A stretch of DNA of 38,564 bases from Geobacteraceae bacterium GWC2_55_20. GTDB lineage: Bacteria; Desulfobacterota; Desulfuromonadia; Geobacterales; Pseudopelobacteraceae. A program made the translations under genes and the position numbers. The notes under the pieces are model-generated. The model searched no databases. It was not told the origin of the DNA and was given only the letters and a program-made list of their open reading frames with translations. Location of the stretch: positions 1 through 38,564 of the forward strand of contig MGZK01000126.1 in NCBI GenBank assembly GCA_001802125.1, written 5' to 3'. Below, one piece after another: positions 24,768 through 34,228 of this stretch (position 1 is the first letter of the stretch; the number at the start of each line of letters is the position of its first letter).

Positions 24768-25694
24768 TCATTTCGCAATTTTCCAAGTATTCTTGCCGGC
24801 ATGTTTGGCCTCGTACAAGGCCAGATCCGCGCTCTTCAACAGCGTTTCCGCGTCCTCGCCATGGTCCGGATAGATGCTGACACCCGCGCTGGTGGTAATT
24901 CTGACCACATTGCCATCAATATCATAGGGTTGCGACAGAGCCTCGATCGCTCTTGACGCCGCCAGGGACGCATAGTCGATGCCGCTGACGTGCCACAGGG
25001 CCAGTATGAATTCGTCGCCCCCCAGGCGCGCCACCGTATCCTCTTCGCGCACCGTTGCCAGCAAACGCTCCGCGACCATTTTCAGCAGAATGTCTCCGGT
25101 TCCGTGCCCCAGCGTGTCGTTGATCTGCTTGAAGCCGTCCAGATCCAGGAATACCACCGCCATGGCACTCCTGTTCCTGCGGGCGTGGACCAGGGCCATC
25201 GACATCCGGTCGGCCAGAAGCCGTCTGTTTGCCAGCCCGGTCAACGGGTCATTCAGCGCCAGTTCTTCCAGCATCTTGCCGTAATTGCGGGCGGCTTCGT
25301 GCAACAGGCGGACTTCCAGCAGGTTGTGAACCCGAATCAACACCTCGGCCAGATCGAACGGCTTGCTGATGAAATCCTTGGCGCCGCTCTGCAGCGCGCG
25401 CAGCTTGTGAGCCGGTTCGGCGGTGACGGCCAGCACCGGCAGATAGCCATCCGTTTCGATTTCCTTGAGCCCTTCCATCACCTGGAAACCATCCATGCCG
25501 GGCATCCTCAGGTCAAGCAGAATCAGGTCGTAGTGGTTGGCGCGATGCAGGTCGCAAACGGCACGAGGATCTCTCGTCGACGTAATGCGGGTATAGCCGG
25601 CAACTCTCAGCATCTGCTCCAGCAGCTGCACATTGGCCTCCAGGTCATCCACAATCAGGATGCCTGAATTAAGAATATCGGCGGGGCTGACCAT
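24768..25694 (-). CDS. REC-GGDEF response regulator, diguanylate cyclase
   Basis: A 308-residue WspR/PleD-like protein. The receiver (about 10-130) has LIVDDLEAN, LILLDLRMPGMDG and ISKPFDL. The GGDEF domain (about 145-305) has LNDPLTGLANRR, a typical FLDLDGFKQIND and an intact active site RLGGDEF. The RxxD inhibitory site (REED) lies five residues before GGDEF, so product inhibition by cyclic di-GMP is expected. It would make cyclic di-GMP from two GTP when its receiver is phosphorylated. Its ATG overlaps the upstream hybrid kinase stop by one base (TGATG) and an AGGAGG precedes it, so the kinase is the probable partner. Confidence 0.95.
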   Translation of the reverse strand: MVSPADILNSGILIVDDLEANVQLLEQMLRVAGYTRITSTRDPRAVCDLHRANHYDLILLDLRMPGMDGFQVMEGLKEIETDGYLPVLAVTAEPAHKLRALQSGAKDFISKPFDLAEVLIRVHNLLEVRLLHEAARNYGKMLEELALNDPLTGLANRRLLADRMSMALVHARRNRSAMAVVFLDLDGFKQINDTLGHGTGDILLKMVAERLLATVREEDTVARLGGDEFILALWHVSGIDYASLAASRAIEALSQPYDIDGNVVRITTSAGVSIYPDHGEDAETLLKSADLALYEAKHAGKNTWKIAK

Positions 25695-28240
25695 CAGCGG
25701 CCTCCTGGATTCTTATCGTTCGAATCATTTTCCGCGTGTTCCAGAGCCATGTCCAGCGCTTCCATGAATTCGTTGACATCGATCGGCTTGGTTATATAGC
25801 GCAGAAAGCCCGCCTCCAGCCCTTTTCTGATATCGTGCGGCATGGCGTTGGCGCTGATGGCCAGCACCGGGATATGCGCCGTCAGCGGATCGTCACGCAG
25901 GATTTCCAGAGCCTGGATACCGCTCATGCCGGGCAGGTTGATGTCCATCAGGATTACTTCCGGCTGACGGGTGCGCGCCAGCGCGATCCCGAGTATGGCG
26001 TCCCCGGCGCTCAACAGGCGCAGGTCGGGGCGCCGTTCGATCAGTTGTTCGACCAGCTGCATATTGGCCAGGTTGTCCTCCACATACAGCAGGGTGCGTG
26101 GCGTTGTTCCATGCGGAATATGCGCATGATACGGCGCCAGTGCTTCAACGGCGTCATCGTCAAGTTGCGGTTCCGTGGACAGGTCCAGCTCAAACCAGAA
26201 TACGCTGCCGGCCCCGGCACTGCTTTCAACGCCGATTTCGCCCCCCATCAGTTCGACCAGCCGTTTGCTCATCACCAGACCGATGCCGGTGCCCGGTTCG
26301 GAGCGGGCCTCTTGCCCTAGGCGGTTGAACGGCTGGAAAAGCTGTGCGATTTTTTCGGCGGACAACCCTTCACCGGTATCATGCACGCTGATGCGGATCC
26401 GGTTTTCGCCGGTCACGCTGCAGGTCACGTCTACCGCCCCCCCGGCACGGTTGTATTTGATCGCATTGGAAACCAGGTTGATCAGAACCTGCTTGACCCG
26501 TGTGCGATCGGCGTGAACAAAGCTGGAACATTCGAACTGGGGAAAGCTCAGGCGGATTCCGTTTTTTTGCGCCTGTGGCTCGATCATCTCCTGGCATTCG
26601 ACCATGACATCGTCCAGCGACATCGGTTCCAGAGACAGTAACAGCCGGCCCGACTCGATCAGCGCCAGATCCAGAATTTCATTGATCAGCTCCAGCAGAT
26701 ACCAGCCCGCCTTGAGAATTTGGCCGACACTTCCCTTTTGTGCGGCGGTCGGCGGTGGCTCTCCGGATTCCAGCAATTGGGCAAAACCGAGGATAGCGTT
26801 GAGCGGGGAGCGCAGCTCATGACTCATACTGGACAGGAATTCGGATTTGGAGAGGTTGGCTTTTTCGGCCACGGACCTGGCGCTTTCCAGCTCGACATTC
26901 TTCTCTTGCAGCACCTGGTCCAGGCGTTTGCGTTCGGTGATATCCCGTGCCGCTGCGAACACCCCCTGCAACTTCCGGTCGCGGTCATAGAAGGTGGTGG
27001 CGTTGAAGGAGACCACCGTTTCCTTGCCGTCCCTGGCACGGACGGTTAGTTCGTAGTTGGTGACCTTCTTTTCTCTCAACACCTGTTTGGTACTCTTCTC
27101 GGCCCGATCAGGATCGGTGAAGTGGTGCTTGAACGGCGCGCCGATCAGTTCATCGCGGGTGCAGCCGGTAAGAACCTCCATCTGTTTGTTGACATCGGTG
27201 ATGATGCCGGCCGGATCGGTGGTCATGATCGCATCGATGTTGGATTCGAACAAAGAGCGCGTGTAGAACTGATTGTCGCGCAGCCGTTGACTGAGCTGCA
27301 TCTGCTCTGCTTCAATCTGCTTGCGGGCGGTGTTGTCGGTGCCGATCAGCAGATAACCGATGATGGCATCCTGCTCGTCGCGCAGGGCCGTGACCGAGAC
27401 TACCGCCGGGAAGCGGCTGCCGTCCTTGCGGATGTAGGTCAGCTCGTAGATATCCTCGATGCCGCGCGAGGCCTTGAACACCAAGGCCTCGAAACCGGGG
27501 GTAATCGGGGTATCGAGCTCCAGGCTCAGCTCTTCGGCGCGCGCGATTACCTCCTGTGGATCGGAAATGTCAGCCGGCGTGATCTTGTTCATCACCTCGG
27601 CGGCGGTGTAGCCCAGCATCCGTTCGGCGCCGACGTTGAAGATCTGGATGACCCCCTTGGCGTCGGTGGCGATACTGGAGAAGTTGGCGCTGTTGAAAAT
27701 CGCGCTCTGCAGCGCTCCCGCCTTGAGCAGCGCCTCTTCGGCCTGCTTGCGGGCGGTGTTGTCGGTGCCGATCAGCAGATAGCCGATAATGGTTTCCTGC
27801 TCGTCGCGCAGGGCCGTGACCGAGACTACCGCCGGGAAGCGGCTGCCGTCCTTGCGGATGTAGGTCAGCTCGTAGATATCTTCGATGCCGCGAGAGGCCT
27901 TGAAGACCAACGCCTCGAAGCCGGGCGTAATCGGGGTTCCCAGTTCCAGGCTCAGTTCTTCGGCGCGGGCGATTACTTCCTGCGGATCGGAAATGTCGGC
28001 CGGTGTGATCTTGTTCATCACCTCGGCGGCGGTGTAACCCAGCATCCGTTCCGCGCCGACGTTGAAGATCTGGATCACCCCCCTGGCATCGGTGGCGATA
28101 CTGGAAAAGTTGGCGCTGTTGAAAATCGCGCTCTGCAGCGCCTCCGCCTTGAGCAGAATCGCTTCGCTACGAACCTCGGAGAGGATTTCTCCCTTATCGA
28201 CGGCATTTGCTGACAAGCTCTTGTTTTTGTCCTTTGTCAT
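25694..28240 (-). CDS. PAS-PAS-PAS hybrid histidine kinase with duplicated PAS
   Basis: An 848-residue soluble hybrid kinase. Two PAS/PAC units (about 29-170 and 171-312) are almost identical, followed by a third, different PAS (about 325-445). HisKA has the acceptor in LSSMSHELRSPLNAILGFAQLL; the ATPase ends with EPGTGIGLVMSKRLVELMGG. A C-terminal receiver (about 715-835) carries LYVEDNLAN, VILMDINLPGMSG and ITKPIDV. No membrane segment is present, so it senses an internal signal through PAS. The stop overlaps the start of the GGDEF gene, linking it to cyclic di-GMP synthesis. The receiver with ELRSPLNAILGF kinases often works in relays with further receivers such as the two encoded downstream. 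Confidence 0.94.
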   Translation of the reverse strand: MTKDKNKSLSANAVDKGEILSEVRSEAILLKAEALQSAIFNSANFSSIATDARGVIQIFNVGAERMLGYTAAEVMNKITPADISDPQEVIARAEELSLELGTPITPGFEALVFKASRGIEDIYELTYIRKDGSRFPAVVSVTALRDEQETIIGYLLIGTDNTARKQAEEALLKAGALQSAIFNSANFSSIATDAKGVIQIFNVGAERMLGYTAAEVMNKITPADISDPQEVIARAEELSLELDTPITPGFEALVFKASRGIEDIYELTYIRKDGSRFPAVVSVTALRDEQDAIIGYLLIGTDNTARKQIEAEQMQLSQRLRDNQFYTRSLFESNIDAIMTTDPAGIITDVNKQMEVLTGCTRDELIGAPFKHHFTDPDRAEKSTKQVLREKKVTNYELTVRARDGKETVVSFNATTFYDRDRKLQGVFAAARDITERKRLDQVLQEKNVELESARSVAEKANLSKSEFLSSMSHELRSPLNAILGFAQLLESGEPPPTAAQKGSVGQILKAGWYLLELINEILDLALIESGRLLLSLEPMSLDDVMVECQEMIEPQAQKNGIRLSFPQFECSSFVHADRTRVKQVLINLVSNAIKYNRAGGAVDVTCSVTGENRIRISVHDTGEGLSAEKIAQLFQPFNRLGQEARSEPGTGIGLVMSKRLVELMGGEIGVESSAGAGSVFWFELDLSTEPQLDDDAVEALAPYHAHIPHGTTPRTLLYVEDNLANMQLVEQLIERRPDLRLLSAGDAILGIALARTRQPEVILMDINLPGMSGIQALEILRDDPLTAHIPVLAISANAMPHDIRKGLEAGFLRYITKPIDVNEFMEALDMALEHAENDSNDKNPGGR
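27305..28156 (-). repeat. 426-bp tandem duplication encoding two PAS domains
   Basis: Copy 1 is 27731-28156 and copy 2 is 27305-27730, inside the hybrid kinase gene. The encoded 142-residue units differ at only a handful of positions (E33/G175, R53/K195, G101/D243, E149/D291, T150/A292 and a few at the junction), which indicates a recent in-frame duplication or ongoing gene conversion. Confidence 0.92.
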
Positions 28241-30760: not shown

Positions 30761-30799
30761 AACTGTGAGCTGCCGCAAATTAAGTAGCTCACGGTTTTT
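30761..30799 (+). terminator. Rho-independent terminator after the small basic gene
   Basis: AACTGTGAGCT (30761-30771) pairs with AGCTCACGGTT (30786-30796), 11 bp with one G.T pair, and the stem runs into TTTTT (30795-30799). It ends the transcript of the 30485 gene and separates it from the metal-uptake cluster. Confidence 0.85.
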
Positions 30800-30850
30800 G
30801 CACGCAGCTTCGGATTGACAGGAACGTCGATAGGCCATATTGTAGCCCCC

Positions 30851-31114
30851 ATGCGTAAGCAACTGTCGATATTCATACTCTTCCTGCTGCTGTTCTCACT
30901 GACGGTTACGGCGCTTCATCATCACGATGATGCCGCCGATCATCAGGACTGCCCCCTCTGCGTAGCAAGCCATAACCAGTCGAGCGACTGTCCGCAGCCG
31001 TTCAGGCTGGATTTTATCCCTTCAGTTTCTCCGGCCGGCTATCATCCGCGGCCCTCAGCCGTAACTCTCACAGCACCTTTTACCCCCGCCAACAATCGCG
31101 CTCCACCAGTCTGA
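30851..31114 (+). CDS. Small secreted or membrane-anchored His/Cys-rich protein
   Basis: An 87-residue protein with a hydrophobic leader (about 5-22) followed by a metal-binding-looking stretch: HHHDD, then DHQDCPLC and SHNQSSDC. The C-terminal half is Pro-rich and not conserved in any way I recognise. Short proteins of this form (leader, His cluster, CxxC) occur beside metal transport genes. It lies 67 bases before a porin, ZnuA-like and ZnuB-like series, so periplasmic binding or delivery of zinc or copper is plausible but unproven. The ATG at 30851 is chosen because the leader starts there; an upstream TTG at 30815 is in frame. No good ribosome site is visible, which lowers certainty. Confidence 0.65.
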   Translation: MRKQLSIFILFLLLFSLTVTALHHHDDAADHQDCPLCVASHNQSSDCPQPFRLDFIPSVSPAGYHPRPSAVTLTAPFTPANNRAPPV

Positions 31115-31181
31115 CCCGCTCCAGACAACCCGACATATCCAATCACACTGAATCGCGTTGGACGCGACACGGGAGGAGTGC

Positions 31182-32537
31182 ATGCGCATATCTATCGTTG
31201 TGGCCCTGTTTGCGGTCACATTATCACCACTATCCGCCATGGCGGACACGGTTGAGCTTCGTCTGAAAAAGCTGGAAGAGGCGGTTTTACGCCAGGCTGA
31301 AATAATCGACAGACAGCAGAAGACCATCGAAGAAATGAAGTTGATGCTGGAAAACGGCAAAACCGCCGAAGTCCGGACGTCCGTTGACAGTTCGGCTAAA
31401 AACAGCGGGTTCTTCGGCGGCTCGCTGATGAACAACCCCTATATCTCGCTGATCCTGGATGCCAAGGCGCAGGTTTCCAACCTGAAAAACAGTGCACTGG
31501 AGGGTCGCGGCATCCCCGGATTCACCAGTGAAGGCTCCGGGCTGCGCAACGGTTTCAACGTTGACGCCGCCGAGCTGCTGATCTTTGCTCCGGTTGACCC
31601 CTATTTCAATCTCTACACCAACATTCCGGTCAACGGCGATGGCGCGGTCCTGGAGGAGGCCTATTTCGTTACGACCTCGCTGCCGCAAGGATTTCAGCTG
31701 AAAGGGGGCCGGTTCAAAAGCAACGCCAGCCGCCTCAATTCCCAGCACCCCCACGCATGGGACTTTGCCGAACTGCCCCTGGCGTATCGCTCGTTTCTCG
31801 GGCCGGAAGCGCTCGGCGGCGAAAATGGCGTGCAACTGACATGGATGCCCTCGCTGCCGGTCTACACGCTGCTGGGGGTCGAGGCGCTGCAGGGCGCCAA
31901 TCCGCTGCTGTTCGGCGATGACAGCAACTGGGGGCCGCACGCCTTTAGCGCCTTTGCCCGGCTATCCTTTGACACCGGCGAAGAGTCCACGTTGTACCTG
32001 TCACCCTGGGCCATGTTCGGCAAAACCAGAACCAGCGCTGTTCTGGCGGCTGACGAAACAACCGGGAACAGCTTCGATCTGCGCGGCGATAGCAGGCTCT
32101 ACGGCCTGGAGGCGGTCTGGAAATGGAATTCGGGACCTCACAAACTCTCCCTGCAGGGCGAATACCTCTATCTGGACCAGCGCGGAGATCTGGGAGAAAC
32201 CGACCCGGCCGGCGCCATGGTAAAGATTGAGCCTCTCAAGCGGCATCAGGACGGCGCCTACCTGCAGGCGGCATATCATTTCAACCGCTTTGGGGTTGGC
32301 GCGCGTTATGACCGCATGGAAATCTTTGCCGACACCTTCGAACGCTCCGGGGCAAAACAGAGCTTTGGCGGCAAGCCATGGCGCATAAGCGCGATGACCG
32401 AGTACGACTTCACCGAATTCAGCCGCATCCGCGCCCAGTTCAACCACGACCGCTCCGACCGCGACAATCGTGTCAACAACGAAGGCATACTGCAACTCAC
32501 CTTTACCATCGGCGCCCATGGCGCGCACCCGTTCTAG
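31182..32537 (+). CDS. Outer-membrane porin-like protein of the metal cluster
   Basis: A 451-residue protein with a signal peptide (about 1-23, cleavage after AMA), an N-terminal coiled coil (LKKLEEAVLRQAEIIDRQQK, about 28-50) as in many porins that trimerise, and a beta-rich remainder with alternating aromatic strands. It ends in Phe (GAHGAHPF), the usual outer-membrane C-terminal signature. It would form a channel in the outer membrane. GGGAGGAG lies four bases upstream of the ATG at 31182. The stop codon overlaps the next gene's ribosome site, so it is co-transcribed with the ZnuA-like gene and may admit metal ions or a chelate. The specific substrate is inferred from context only. Confidence 0.8.
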   Translation: MRISIVVALFAVTLSPLSAMADTVELRLKKLEEAVLRQAEIIDRQQKTIEEMKLMLENGKTAEVRTSVDSSAKNSGFFGGSLMNNPYISLILDAKAQVSNLKNSALEGRGIPGFTSEGSGLRNGFNVDAAELLIFAPVDPYFNLYTNIPVNGDGAVLEEAYFVTTSLPQGFQLKGGRFKSNASRLNSQHPHAWDFAELPLAYRSFLGPEALGGENGVQLTWMPSLPVYTLLGVEALQGANPLLFGDDSNWGPHAFSAFARLSFDTGEESTLYLSPWAMFGKTRTSAVLAADETTGNSFDLRGDSRLYGLEAVWKWNSGPHKLSLQGEYLYLDQRGDLGETDPAGAMVKIEPLKRHQDGAYLQAAYHFNRFGVGARYDRMEIFADTFERSGAKQSFGGKPWRISAMTEYDFTEFSRIRAQFNHDRSDRDNRVNNEGILQLTFTIGAHGAHPF

Positions 32538-32545
32538 GAGGAAAC

Positions 32546-33424
32546 ATGCTACGCATCATTGTTGCGCTTTTTGCGCTTGTCCTGTTTACGGCCCCGGCCG
32601 ATGCCGCCGTCAAGGTGGTGGCGACACTCCCCTGGATCGGCAGCCTGGCCAAGGAGATCGGCAAGGACCGGGTGACTGTGACCACCCTGGTAAAAACCTC
32701 GCAGGATCCGCACTCCATCGAAGCCAGGCCTTCGATGATCGCCGCCGTGCGACGGGCGGACCTGCTGATCTACAACGGCCTCGACCTGGAGGTCGGCTAC
32801 CTGCCGATCCTGATGGAATCGGCCAGAAACCCGGCCATCAATCCGGGCAACGCCGGAAACCTGAACTGTTCGGTGTATGTGGACCCGCTGGAAAAACCGG
32901 CCACTGCCAGCCGCGAAAACGGAGATGTGCATCCTTTGGGAAATCCCCACTACCACCTCTCGCCGGCAAACATCAAAAAAATGGCCATCGGCATCGGAGA
33001 ACGGCTGGCAAAGGTCGATCAGGCCAACGCCGGCTTCTATCGTGCCAATACCGCCCGCTTCGTCGCGCAGGTCGATCATAAAATGAAGGAGTGGAAGGGC
33101 AGGAAACTGCAGGGGAAACGGTTTGTCGCGCAGCACCGATTTTTTGAATATCTTGCCGCGGATTTCGGGTTCCGCATAGTCGGGTATCTTGAAGAAAAAC
33201 CGGGCATCCCGCCCAGCAGCGCCCATATTCAAGCGCTTGTCTCAAGCATGTCCGGACACCGTCCCGATGCGATCCTGAGTACTGAATACCACGACCGGAC
33301 CATATCCGGCTTCGTGTCGTCTAAAACCGGTGTCAAATCGGTTATCGTGCCCCATGATGTGGGAGCCAACGGAAGCAGGGACTGGTTTTCGCTGATGGAC
33401 AGCGTCATCAAGTCCCTGGAGTAG
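32546..33424 (+). CDS. ZnuA/TroA-family metal-binding lipoprotein-like periplasmic protein
   Basis: A 292-residue cluster A-I solute-binding protein with a cleavable signal peptide (about 1-20). The family metal ligands are visible as histidines in QDPHSIEARPS, PHYHLSP and VAQHRFFEY and an acidic residue in STEYHD. The His-rich flexible loop of many zinc proteins is absent; instead a short ENGDVHPLGNPHYH segment stands at that place. It would capture zinc (or manganese) in the periplasm and hand it to the permease encoded six bases downstream. The start at 32546 is preferred over the longer frame because AGGAGG, overlapping the porin stop, lies just before it and the signal peptide begins there. 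No lipobox is seen. Confidence 0.88.
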   Translation: MLRIIVALFALVLFTAPADAAVKVVATLPWIGSLAKEIGKDRVTVTTLVKTSQDPHSIEARPSMIAAVRRADLLIYNGLDLEVGYLPILMESARNPAINPGNAGNLNCSVYVDPLEKPATASRENGDVHPLGNPHYHLSPANIKKMAIGIGERLAKVDQANAGFYRANTARFVAQVDHKMKEWKGRKLQGKRFVAQHRFFEYLAADFGFRIVGYLEEKPGIPPSSAHIQALVSSMSGHRPDAILSTEYHDRTISGFVSSKTGVKSVIVPHDVGANGSRDWFSLMDSVIKSLE

Positions 33425-33430
33425 CCGGAT

Positions 33431-34228
33431 ATGGACAACCTGTCATTTCTGATCTGGCCGTTTGGCGCCTGCCTGCTGCTGATACTGATCCACACCTGGT
33501 TCGGCGTGCACATTCTGGAGCGGGGCATCATCTTCGTTGACCTGGCCCTGGCCCAGTTCATCAGCATCGGCATTGCCCTGTCGCTGCTGACCGGTGTGGA
33601 CCGCACCCTGCTGGCCGTTATCTTCGCCCTCGGCGGCGCCTTGATCATGACACTTACCGGCAGGGTGGCGCGCCACGTCAACGTGGAGGCCTTCATCGGG
33701 GTGCTGTACATATTTTCATTTGCCACCTGCACCCTGATCCTGGATCGCACAGCCCATGGCATGGAAGAGTTCAAAGCGATACTGAACGGCAACATCCTCT
33801 GGGTAACGCCGGGGATGCTCGGCTCGACCGCGCTGCTCTACGGGGCGGTCGGCCTGCTGCACTGGTTCCTGAGGAGGCGTTTCCACGACCTGACCTTCCG
33901 CGGGGAAGGGCCGCTGTGGGTGGAGTTCATCTTTTTTGCCAGTTTTGCCCTGGTGCTGGTCAAATCGGTGATGATCGCGGGAATTCTGCAGGTGTTTTCA
34001 TTTCTGGTGGTGCCGGCCCTGCTGGGCCGGCTTTTCTTTCGCGGCAGCGGCAGCATCCTGGTGGCCGGCTGGATTGCGGGAACCGTGGTGAGCAGCGGCG
34101 GTATCGCCGTTTCACACGTTCTGGATCTTCCCACCGCCCCGGTCATCGTGGCCGGTCTGGCGCTGCTGTTTTTCCTGGCGCTCGCCGCAAAGTCGTTCTC
34201 CGGTCGTAATGGCTTGAATCGGGTTTAG
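33431..34228 (+). CDS. ZnuB/TroC-type metal ABC transporter permease
   Basis: A 265-residue inner-membrane permease of the zinc/manganese ABC family with about seven or eight hydrophobic helices. Typical blocks are RGIIFVDLALAQFISIGIALSLL near the N-terminus and SFLVVPALLGRLF, the conserved segment near the ATPase contact. Together with the upstream binding protein it would import a divalent metal. The usual partner ATPase (ZnuC-like) is not encoded in the cluster, either before the porin or after this gene, so the ATPase must lie elsewhere or be shared. The ATG follows GGAG with a suitable gap. Confidence 0.9.
   Translation: MDNLSFLIWPFGACLLLILIHTWFGVHILERGIIFVDLALAQFISIGIALSLLTGVDRTLLAVIFALGGALIMTLTGRVARHVNVEAFIGVLYIFSFATCTLILDRTAHGMEEFKAILNGNILWVTPGMLGSTALLYGAVGLLHWFLRRRFHDLTFRGEGPLWVEFIFFASFALVLVKSVMIAGILQVFSFLVVPALLGRLFFRGSGSILVAGWIAGTVVSSGGIAVSHVLDLPTAPVIVAGLALLFFLALAAKSFSGRNGLNRV

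Follow-up and report, generated by a model that had tools for sequence, protein, structure and literature searches.

What defines an ATP-binding cassette (ABC) importer is its ATPase. How, then, might zinc be taken up by an operon of Geobacteraceae bacterium GWC2_55_20 that encodes a ZnuA-type binding protein and a ZnuB-type permease and no ATPase? The window, as the whole stretch of 38,564 nucleotides analysed here is called, is contig MGZK01000126.1 (C126) of a 4.55-Mb genome that is 99.9% complete. Within positions 30851-34228, four genes follow one another on the forward strand with intergenic gaps of 67, 8 and 6 bases, and encode a small His/Cys peptide, an outer-membrane beta-barrel, ZnuA and ZnuB. 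The initial annotation had described a compact metal-uptake set covering outer membrane, periplasm and inner membrane without an ATPase, and this description was borne out: the four genes lie in their place, and no open reading frame (ORF) of the window matched ZnuC at E 0.01 or joined a Walker A motif to an ABC signature. The comparisons given below incline us slightly to the view that the operon encodes a zinc importer which is fed by ZnuA and has no need of an ABC ATPase. The strongest points for ATP-independence, which we infer from sequence, are a shortened segment in the permease and the existence of carrier genomes without any ZnuC-level ATPase.

The missing ATPase gene and its distribution

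The window ZnuB, whose sole Pfam match is ABC-3, is an ABC-3 permease, and its relatives were studied as a clade of 59 aligned sequences from 58 distinct loci (L083 is the same locus as L008). A dedicated ABC ATPase, which ABC-3/Znu importers require, was encoded neither in the window nor inside any of the related operons (0/59), whereas 31 of the 41 ordinary ABC-3 loci that served as control had one (Fisher 1.7e-17, on rows that are phylogenetically non-independent). The 10 control loci without an ATPase were all from Aquificota. The ordinary ABC-3 permeases of the Aquificota loci L172 (8046-8858), L173 (7638-8447) and L154 (7362-8180) likewise had no ATPase nearby, and two of these three stand beside what we take to be a PhoU-like gene. 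The initial annotation had named an ATPase lost only in this strain as a result that would speak against it; with no ATPase in 59 related operons this is ruled out. The cluster was indeed found in related genomes, its ATPase-less gene order recurring in distant phyla, four of them by our count, and the ZnuB of the window is under purifying selection (ratio of nonsynonymous to synonymous substitution rates, dN/dS, 0.11-0.22 against three relatives).

Of a set of 58 genomes that comprised G000 and those around it, six (G000, G010, G011, G032, G047 and G054) had a clear orthologue at about 63% identity or above, and a close relative of the window shares 95% identity in ZnuB. With a profile of the clade permease, 43 of 136 Aquificota genomes scored at least 167 bits, the others among the matches listed reaching at most 72 bits; loci from 30 of these 43 carriers are in the alignment, and the other 13 were counted with their loci outside the 59. 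Even sampling of the window's phylum gave 21 carriers of the permease among 395 genomes at E 1e-25. Plasmid records added Sulfurovum mangrovi and a Vibrio campbellii replicon, and a weak match from Leptolyngbya was rejected as a clade member, an ATPase alongside marking it as an ordinary permease. A homologue search in viral contigs gave 80 pattern matches and no relative. At L126/L153 (G290), an ORF of 443 residues runs in frame from the start of the barrel gene into a ZnuB without its first helix, which is either a deletion or an assembly error.

The surroundings of the operons were inspected for an ATPase or another partner. A flanking ABC ATPase was found at 2 of 51 clade loci, both on the opposite strand. 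In the wider flanks of 35 clade loci, same-strand ABC ATPases lay 2.9-3.9 kb downstream in L136, L147 and L159 (64-124 bits against ZnuC), opposite-strand ones occurred in L139 and L164, and a second, ordinary ABC-3 permease with its own ATPase was seen in L142 and L152. No fifth gene recurred near the operon besides common unrelated families, including assorted ABC ATPases in 8 loci, and a hidden fifth gene as energiser was rejected on this ground.

An orphan ZnuC elsewhere in the genome, for which the initial annotation had proposed a search, did not turn up. The window genome has two matches each to the ABC-3 and ZnuA families, in the operon on C126 and on contig C142, which carries a canonical znuA-znuC-znuB. 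The C142 ZnuC scored 350 bits with the ZnuC profile, the next among the matches listed having 156; used as a query it found itself at 558 bits, followed by a drop to 96 bits, where other ABC ATPases also score. The one ZnuC-level ATPase that this genome has sits in another operon, and there is therefore no orphan ZnuC. The profile was also run on 69 carrier genomes, all of which matched at E 1e-38 since other ABC ATPases match too; ZnuC level was read from the scores of most ATPases beside ordinary ABC-3 permeases (at least 185 bits), unrelated ones reaching about 183. On this scale, G246, G338 and G531, each rated 100% complete and each with the clade permease as its single ABC-3 protein, had no ZnuC-level match (best E 3.4e-42, 3.1e-45 at 154 bits and 5.5e-46 at 157 bits, respectively). 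The same held for G227 (90% complete), in which the clade permease is the only ABC-3, and for G194 (93% complete), in which a second ABC-3 match is marginal at 21.9 bits. A ZnuC-level match was also absent from G100, G105 and G106, of which G105 is a 0.8-Mb assembly and the other two have ordinary ABC-3 permeases. Because G246, G338 and G531 have no such match, one family at least would have no typical ZnuC to share, and a divergent ATPase below ZnuC level could still serve.

The shortened segment and the metal site of the permease

Between two conserved glycines, G120 and G184 of the window ZnuB, the permease has 64 residues against the ordinary 71. The length of this segment was exactly 71 in all 41 ordinary permeases as well as in E. 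coli ZnuB (9oko) and PsaB (7kyo), whereas 54 of the 59 clade permeases were shorter by 7-19 residues (64 in 19 including the window, 52-56 in 35, and 71 in 5). The adjacent segments were nearly equal in length in the two groups, with medians of 59 and 58, 30 and 30, and 48 and 50. In ordinary permeases, the stretch that is shortened in the clade reads SEELAKVSGIRTS or DEELARSSGIRVA, and the match to the Pfam ABC-3 model is interrupted there in several clade members (about positions 143-171). The shortened cytoplasmic segment probably contains the coupling helix on which the ATPase docks, and the window permease is thus without a full-length version of this presumed docking segment. The importance of the coupling helices is stressed, without residue numbers, in the available text on PsaBC (PMC11779740).

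A tree built without the segment placed all 59 sequences in one clade with a support of 0.83 and a long branch. Within it, the pair with 52 residues (L031 and L131) stood apart from the group with 53-64 residues, and the five members with 71 residues stood beside the latter; because of this separation the shortening may have happened twice. The pattern fits a course in which the ATPase was lost first and the docking segment eroded later, perhaps more than once.

The residues of the metal site have also changed. His42, present in 41/41 ordinary permeases, is Gln in 58 of the 59 clade members, and Asp86 (41/41) is Glu in all of them. In addition, a new Asp (D37) is found in 59/59 and a new conserved His21 in 51 of the 54 rows of the residue table, which is without L083, L126 (truncated), L132, L133 and L013 (near-duplicate). 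In the available text of the respective papers, D47, H51 and D94 are essential in MntC (PMC8487065), and Asp46 and His50 in PsaB (PMC11779740). The corresponding Asp-His-Asp triad is not kept in the clade, its His being replaced by Gln, its last Asp by Glu, and its first Asp shifted by one column. Loss of the canonical Asp in transmembrane helix 2 was considered as a clade-specific trait and rejected, this Asp being present in only 6 of the 41 ordinary permeases; because most of these also lack it, our argument on the metal site uses only the changes from His to Gln and from Asp to Glu. Judged by these residues, the metal pathway of the clade permease would have been re-laid rather than lost.

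The partner genes and the link to zinc

The features of the operon are collected in Table 1. In the alignment, the window ZnuA retains His56, His135 and His197, and these together with its PF01297 score place it with the cluster A-I substrate-binding proteins. It has no His-rich loop, as the initial annotation had noticed, and the loop is present in the other ZnuA of the same genome. At L007 (7449-8408) and L024 (6571-7533), there is a further ZnuA, of the lipoprotein type, after the ATPase-less ZnuB.

Table 1. Operon features in the window, with coordinates in window positions.
Feature	Length (residues)	Coordinates	Strand	Remarks
Promoter-like site		30815..30843	+	-35 TTGACA 30815-30820, 17 bases, -10 TATTGT 30838-30843; direct reading
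Small secreted His/Cys peptide, DUF2946-like	87	30851..31114	+	Signal peptide, HHHDDAADHQDCPLC, C-terminal RAPP motif
Outer-membrane beta-barrel without plug domain	451	31182..32537	+	Coiled-coil N-terminus; C-terminus IGAHGAHPF
ZnuA-type periplasmic metal-binding protein	292	32546..33424	+	PF01297 168 bits
ZnuB-type (ABC-3) permease	265	33431..34228	+	PF00950 68 bits (cut-off 20.1); ATPase-less clade; D37/Q42/E86

The small peptide scored 21.8 bits (E 3.4e-4) against PF11162 (DUF2946), which is under the Pfam cut-off of 23.7, and it is not counted as a member of that family. A His/Cys peptide was present in 32 of 43 loci checked, including the window; among the 11 misses, L145, L159, L162 and L169 have no upstream sequence and L153 is truncated. 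Across loci these peptides share a signal peptide and the pattern HHHxD..HxDCxxC, and most have RAPP or RGPP at the C-terminus. The initial annotation had guessed that the peptide might supply in trans the His-rich loop that the window ZnuA lacks. The peptide also occurs outside the ATPase-less type, because a sibling operon, L027 (G032:C212), has it together with a barrel, ZnuA, an ABC ATPase and an ABC-3 protein of 553 residues; this operon adjoins a further ATPase and ABC-3 system. The second gene had been taken for a porin: an outer-membrane barrel it is, but its match is to the barrel of TonB-dependent receptors (PF00593, 32.6 bits, above the cut-off, residues 243-420, barrel part only), with no plug domain reported, and 'porin' is here no more than a label. 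Comparison of the barrel with solved structures gave no meaningful match. Nearly all related loci have a barrel homologue ahead of ZnuA, and most of these barrels have a GAHxAHxF-type end.

The promoter-like site stops 7 bases short of the start codon of the peptide gene, and L006 has kept it; of the 32 loci tested, 16 including the window had such a site at shuffle p < 0.05, and in 3 of the 16 it lies further upstream. In the window (30815-30853) and related loci, a strong TTGACA-N17-TATAAT-like promoter often ends no more than about 6-11 bases ahead of the peptide start codon, and this short distance suggests a leaderless transcript. An inverted repeat followed by a T run (30764-30804) after the DUF3553 gene is terminator-like and sets that gene apart from the operon, and the gene directly downstream of the operon is yaeQ on the opposite strand. 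Elsewhere in the window, on the reverse strand (25694-28240), a histidine kinase contains two near-identical tandem PAS-type repeats, a recent internal duplication.

A link to zinc comes from gene context and from Vibrio. At L142, the ATPase-less operon runs divergently from a Fur-family gene (PF01475, 89 bits) and a canonical znuACB; no Zur box was seen in the upstream regions, which were inspected by eye only, without a motif search. The gene set is already known in Vibrio as a zinc system. According to the available text of PMC9817125, omr-znuA2-znuB2 (the vpa1307 locus, in the Zur regulon) was induced 1034-, 543- and 283-fold, respectively, by zinc starvation, and it resembles the window in having a barrel, ZnuA and ZnuB and no ATPase listed among the three. 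The ZnuA Vpa1307 was needed for growth of VP3218 in the presence of N,N,N',N'-tetrakis(2-pyridylmethyl)ethylenediamine (TPEN), an effect abolished by mutation of H69 and H148 (PMC3794297, available text). The spacing between these two residues (79) equals that of H56-H135 in the window and of H68-H147 in L031, and the third His of Vpa1307 (H202) fits H211 of L031 less simply. The V. campbellii locus L031, which is equated with the published Vibrio cluster by species and gene order only, falls in the clade with a segment of 52 residues and, unlike the window, had no His/Cys peptide that we could find. The Vibrio cluster has been published as a zinc transporter; its missing ATPase and shortened permease go unmentioned in the available text of PMC9817125 and PMC3794297.

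Mechanism, rival readings and known systems

Taken across phyla, we put at a little above an even chance that an ABC-3 lineage dropped its ATPase and most of the docking site and became a binding-protein-dependent, ATP-independent zinc importer, either a secondary transporter or a gated path. In such a system the barrel would pass zinc(II) across the outer membrane, and the secreted His/Cys peptide may buffer zinc or hand it on in the periplasm. ZnuA would load zinc and dock on a ZnuB dimer, supplying affinity and direction, and ZnuB would be an ABC-3 descendant that no longer uses an ABC ATPase, with its partner gene lost and, in most lineages, part of the presumed docking segment lost as well. 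Zinc would move via D37, Q42 and E86 into the cell without ATP, driven perhaps by the membrane potential or by exchange for other ions such as protons, much as in other binding-protein-dependent secondary transporters.

Several observations weigh against such an importer. All 69 carrier genomes hold other ABC ATPases, and the score that divides ZnuC level from the rest is imperfect, ATPases beside ordinary ABC-3 permeases being found at 173 (G032, C212), 164 (G082, contig end) and 156 bits (G365, C8). The genomes G246, G338 and G531 all belong to one family (three genera), five of the 59 clade permeases retain the full segment in operons that likewise have no ATPase, and the coupling helix was placed inside the shortened segment on what we presume of the anatomy and structures of ABC importers. 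An AlphaFold model of ZnuB from four input sequences had a mean predicted local distance difference test score of 42.7, too low for any use. Furthermore, single deletion of znuA2 in V. parahaemolyticus RIMD2210633 gave no growth defect (PMC9817125, available text). Ordinary ABC-3 permeases are also present in 42 of 43 Aquificota carriers and in 21 of 26 carriers of the window's phylum, so that a metal-type ATPase is usually in the carrier cell; in Aquificota they are commoner in carriers than in non-carriers (75/93; p 0.007, counted by hand, with phylogeny and completeness uncontrolled), an excess that ATPase sharing would predict. Borrowing of an ABC ATPase from elsewhere, be it a canonical ZnuC or an ATPase with a different docking surface, is the main rival and to us a possible though doubtful explanation. 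The complete znuACB on another contig of the window genome would allow it, as would the separation of ZnuC from its permease seen in G058, where the roughly 7 kb flanking an ordinary ABC-3 on each side on C3 contain no ATPase and the best match to the ZnuC profile lies on C7. Against sharing count the segment, which is shortened in most of the clade and never among ordinary permeases, and the five genomes without a ZnuC-level ATPase (G246, G338, G531, G227 and G194), in four of which the clade permease is the sole ABC-3 protein. The initial annotation had left the choice between sharing an ATPase and working differently; because of the shortening in 54/59 and the three complete genomes without a ZnuC-level ATPase, the evidence leans to working differently.

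The change of the canonical His and Asp at the metal site could also mean that the permease is a zinc sensor, a regulating partner of ZnuA or an exporter rather than an importer. We think this improbable: the barrel, the binding protein and the permease stay together across phyla, the polar and acidic pathway residues D37, Q42 and E86 are conserved, and a clade-type Vibrio ZnuA aids growth of VP3218 under zinc depletion (PMC3794297, available text). The copy in G290 (L153) is truncated, but a reading of the operon as the decaying or strain-specific remains of an ordinary one minus its ATPase can be set aside almost entirely, being refuted by conservation, namely the low dN/dS of ZnuB and the shared architecture in four phyla.

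No paper on an ATPase-less ABC-3 lineage with a shortened docking segment was found in the open literature, subscription journals and supplements lying outside the search. If the ATP-independent importer is real, it would show how an ATP-driven pump can turn into a secondary transporter, and the published Vibrio zinc system, whose missing ATPase is undiscussed in the available text, would have to be re-read. It also raises the testable question of what ATP does in zinc uptake beyond the membrane potential and a binding protein.

Among known systems, the operon shares with importers of the ZnuABC/PsaABC type (ABC-3, PF00950) the homology of both ZnuA and ZnuB above curated cut-offs; it differs from them in the absent ATPase gene, the shortened cytoplasmic segment and the replacement of His by Gln and of Asp by Glu at the metal site. 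The best NCBIfam match of the window ZnuA is AztC of AztABCD, which is likewise not known to have a His-rich loop, at 118 bits and thus far below the cut-off of 350; the permease reached 43.6 of the 280 bits set for AztB, the window has no AztA ATPase, and the operon does not belong to that system. Solitary BioY and BtuM differ from the ABC-3 permease in fold and substrate and have no substrate-binding protein. They are nevertheless alike in that a membrane part of an ABC-related system transports without an ATPase, being S-components of energy-coupling factor (ECF) transporters that work without the ECF module (PMC6072759, available text). The tripartite ATP-independent periplasmic (TRAP) transporters share binding-protein-dependent, ATP-independent import (PMC8276074, available text), but they have other membrane subunits and carry organic anions, and the window permease, with ABC-3 as its only Pfam match, is not one of them.

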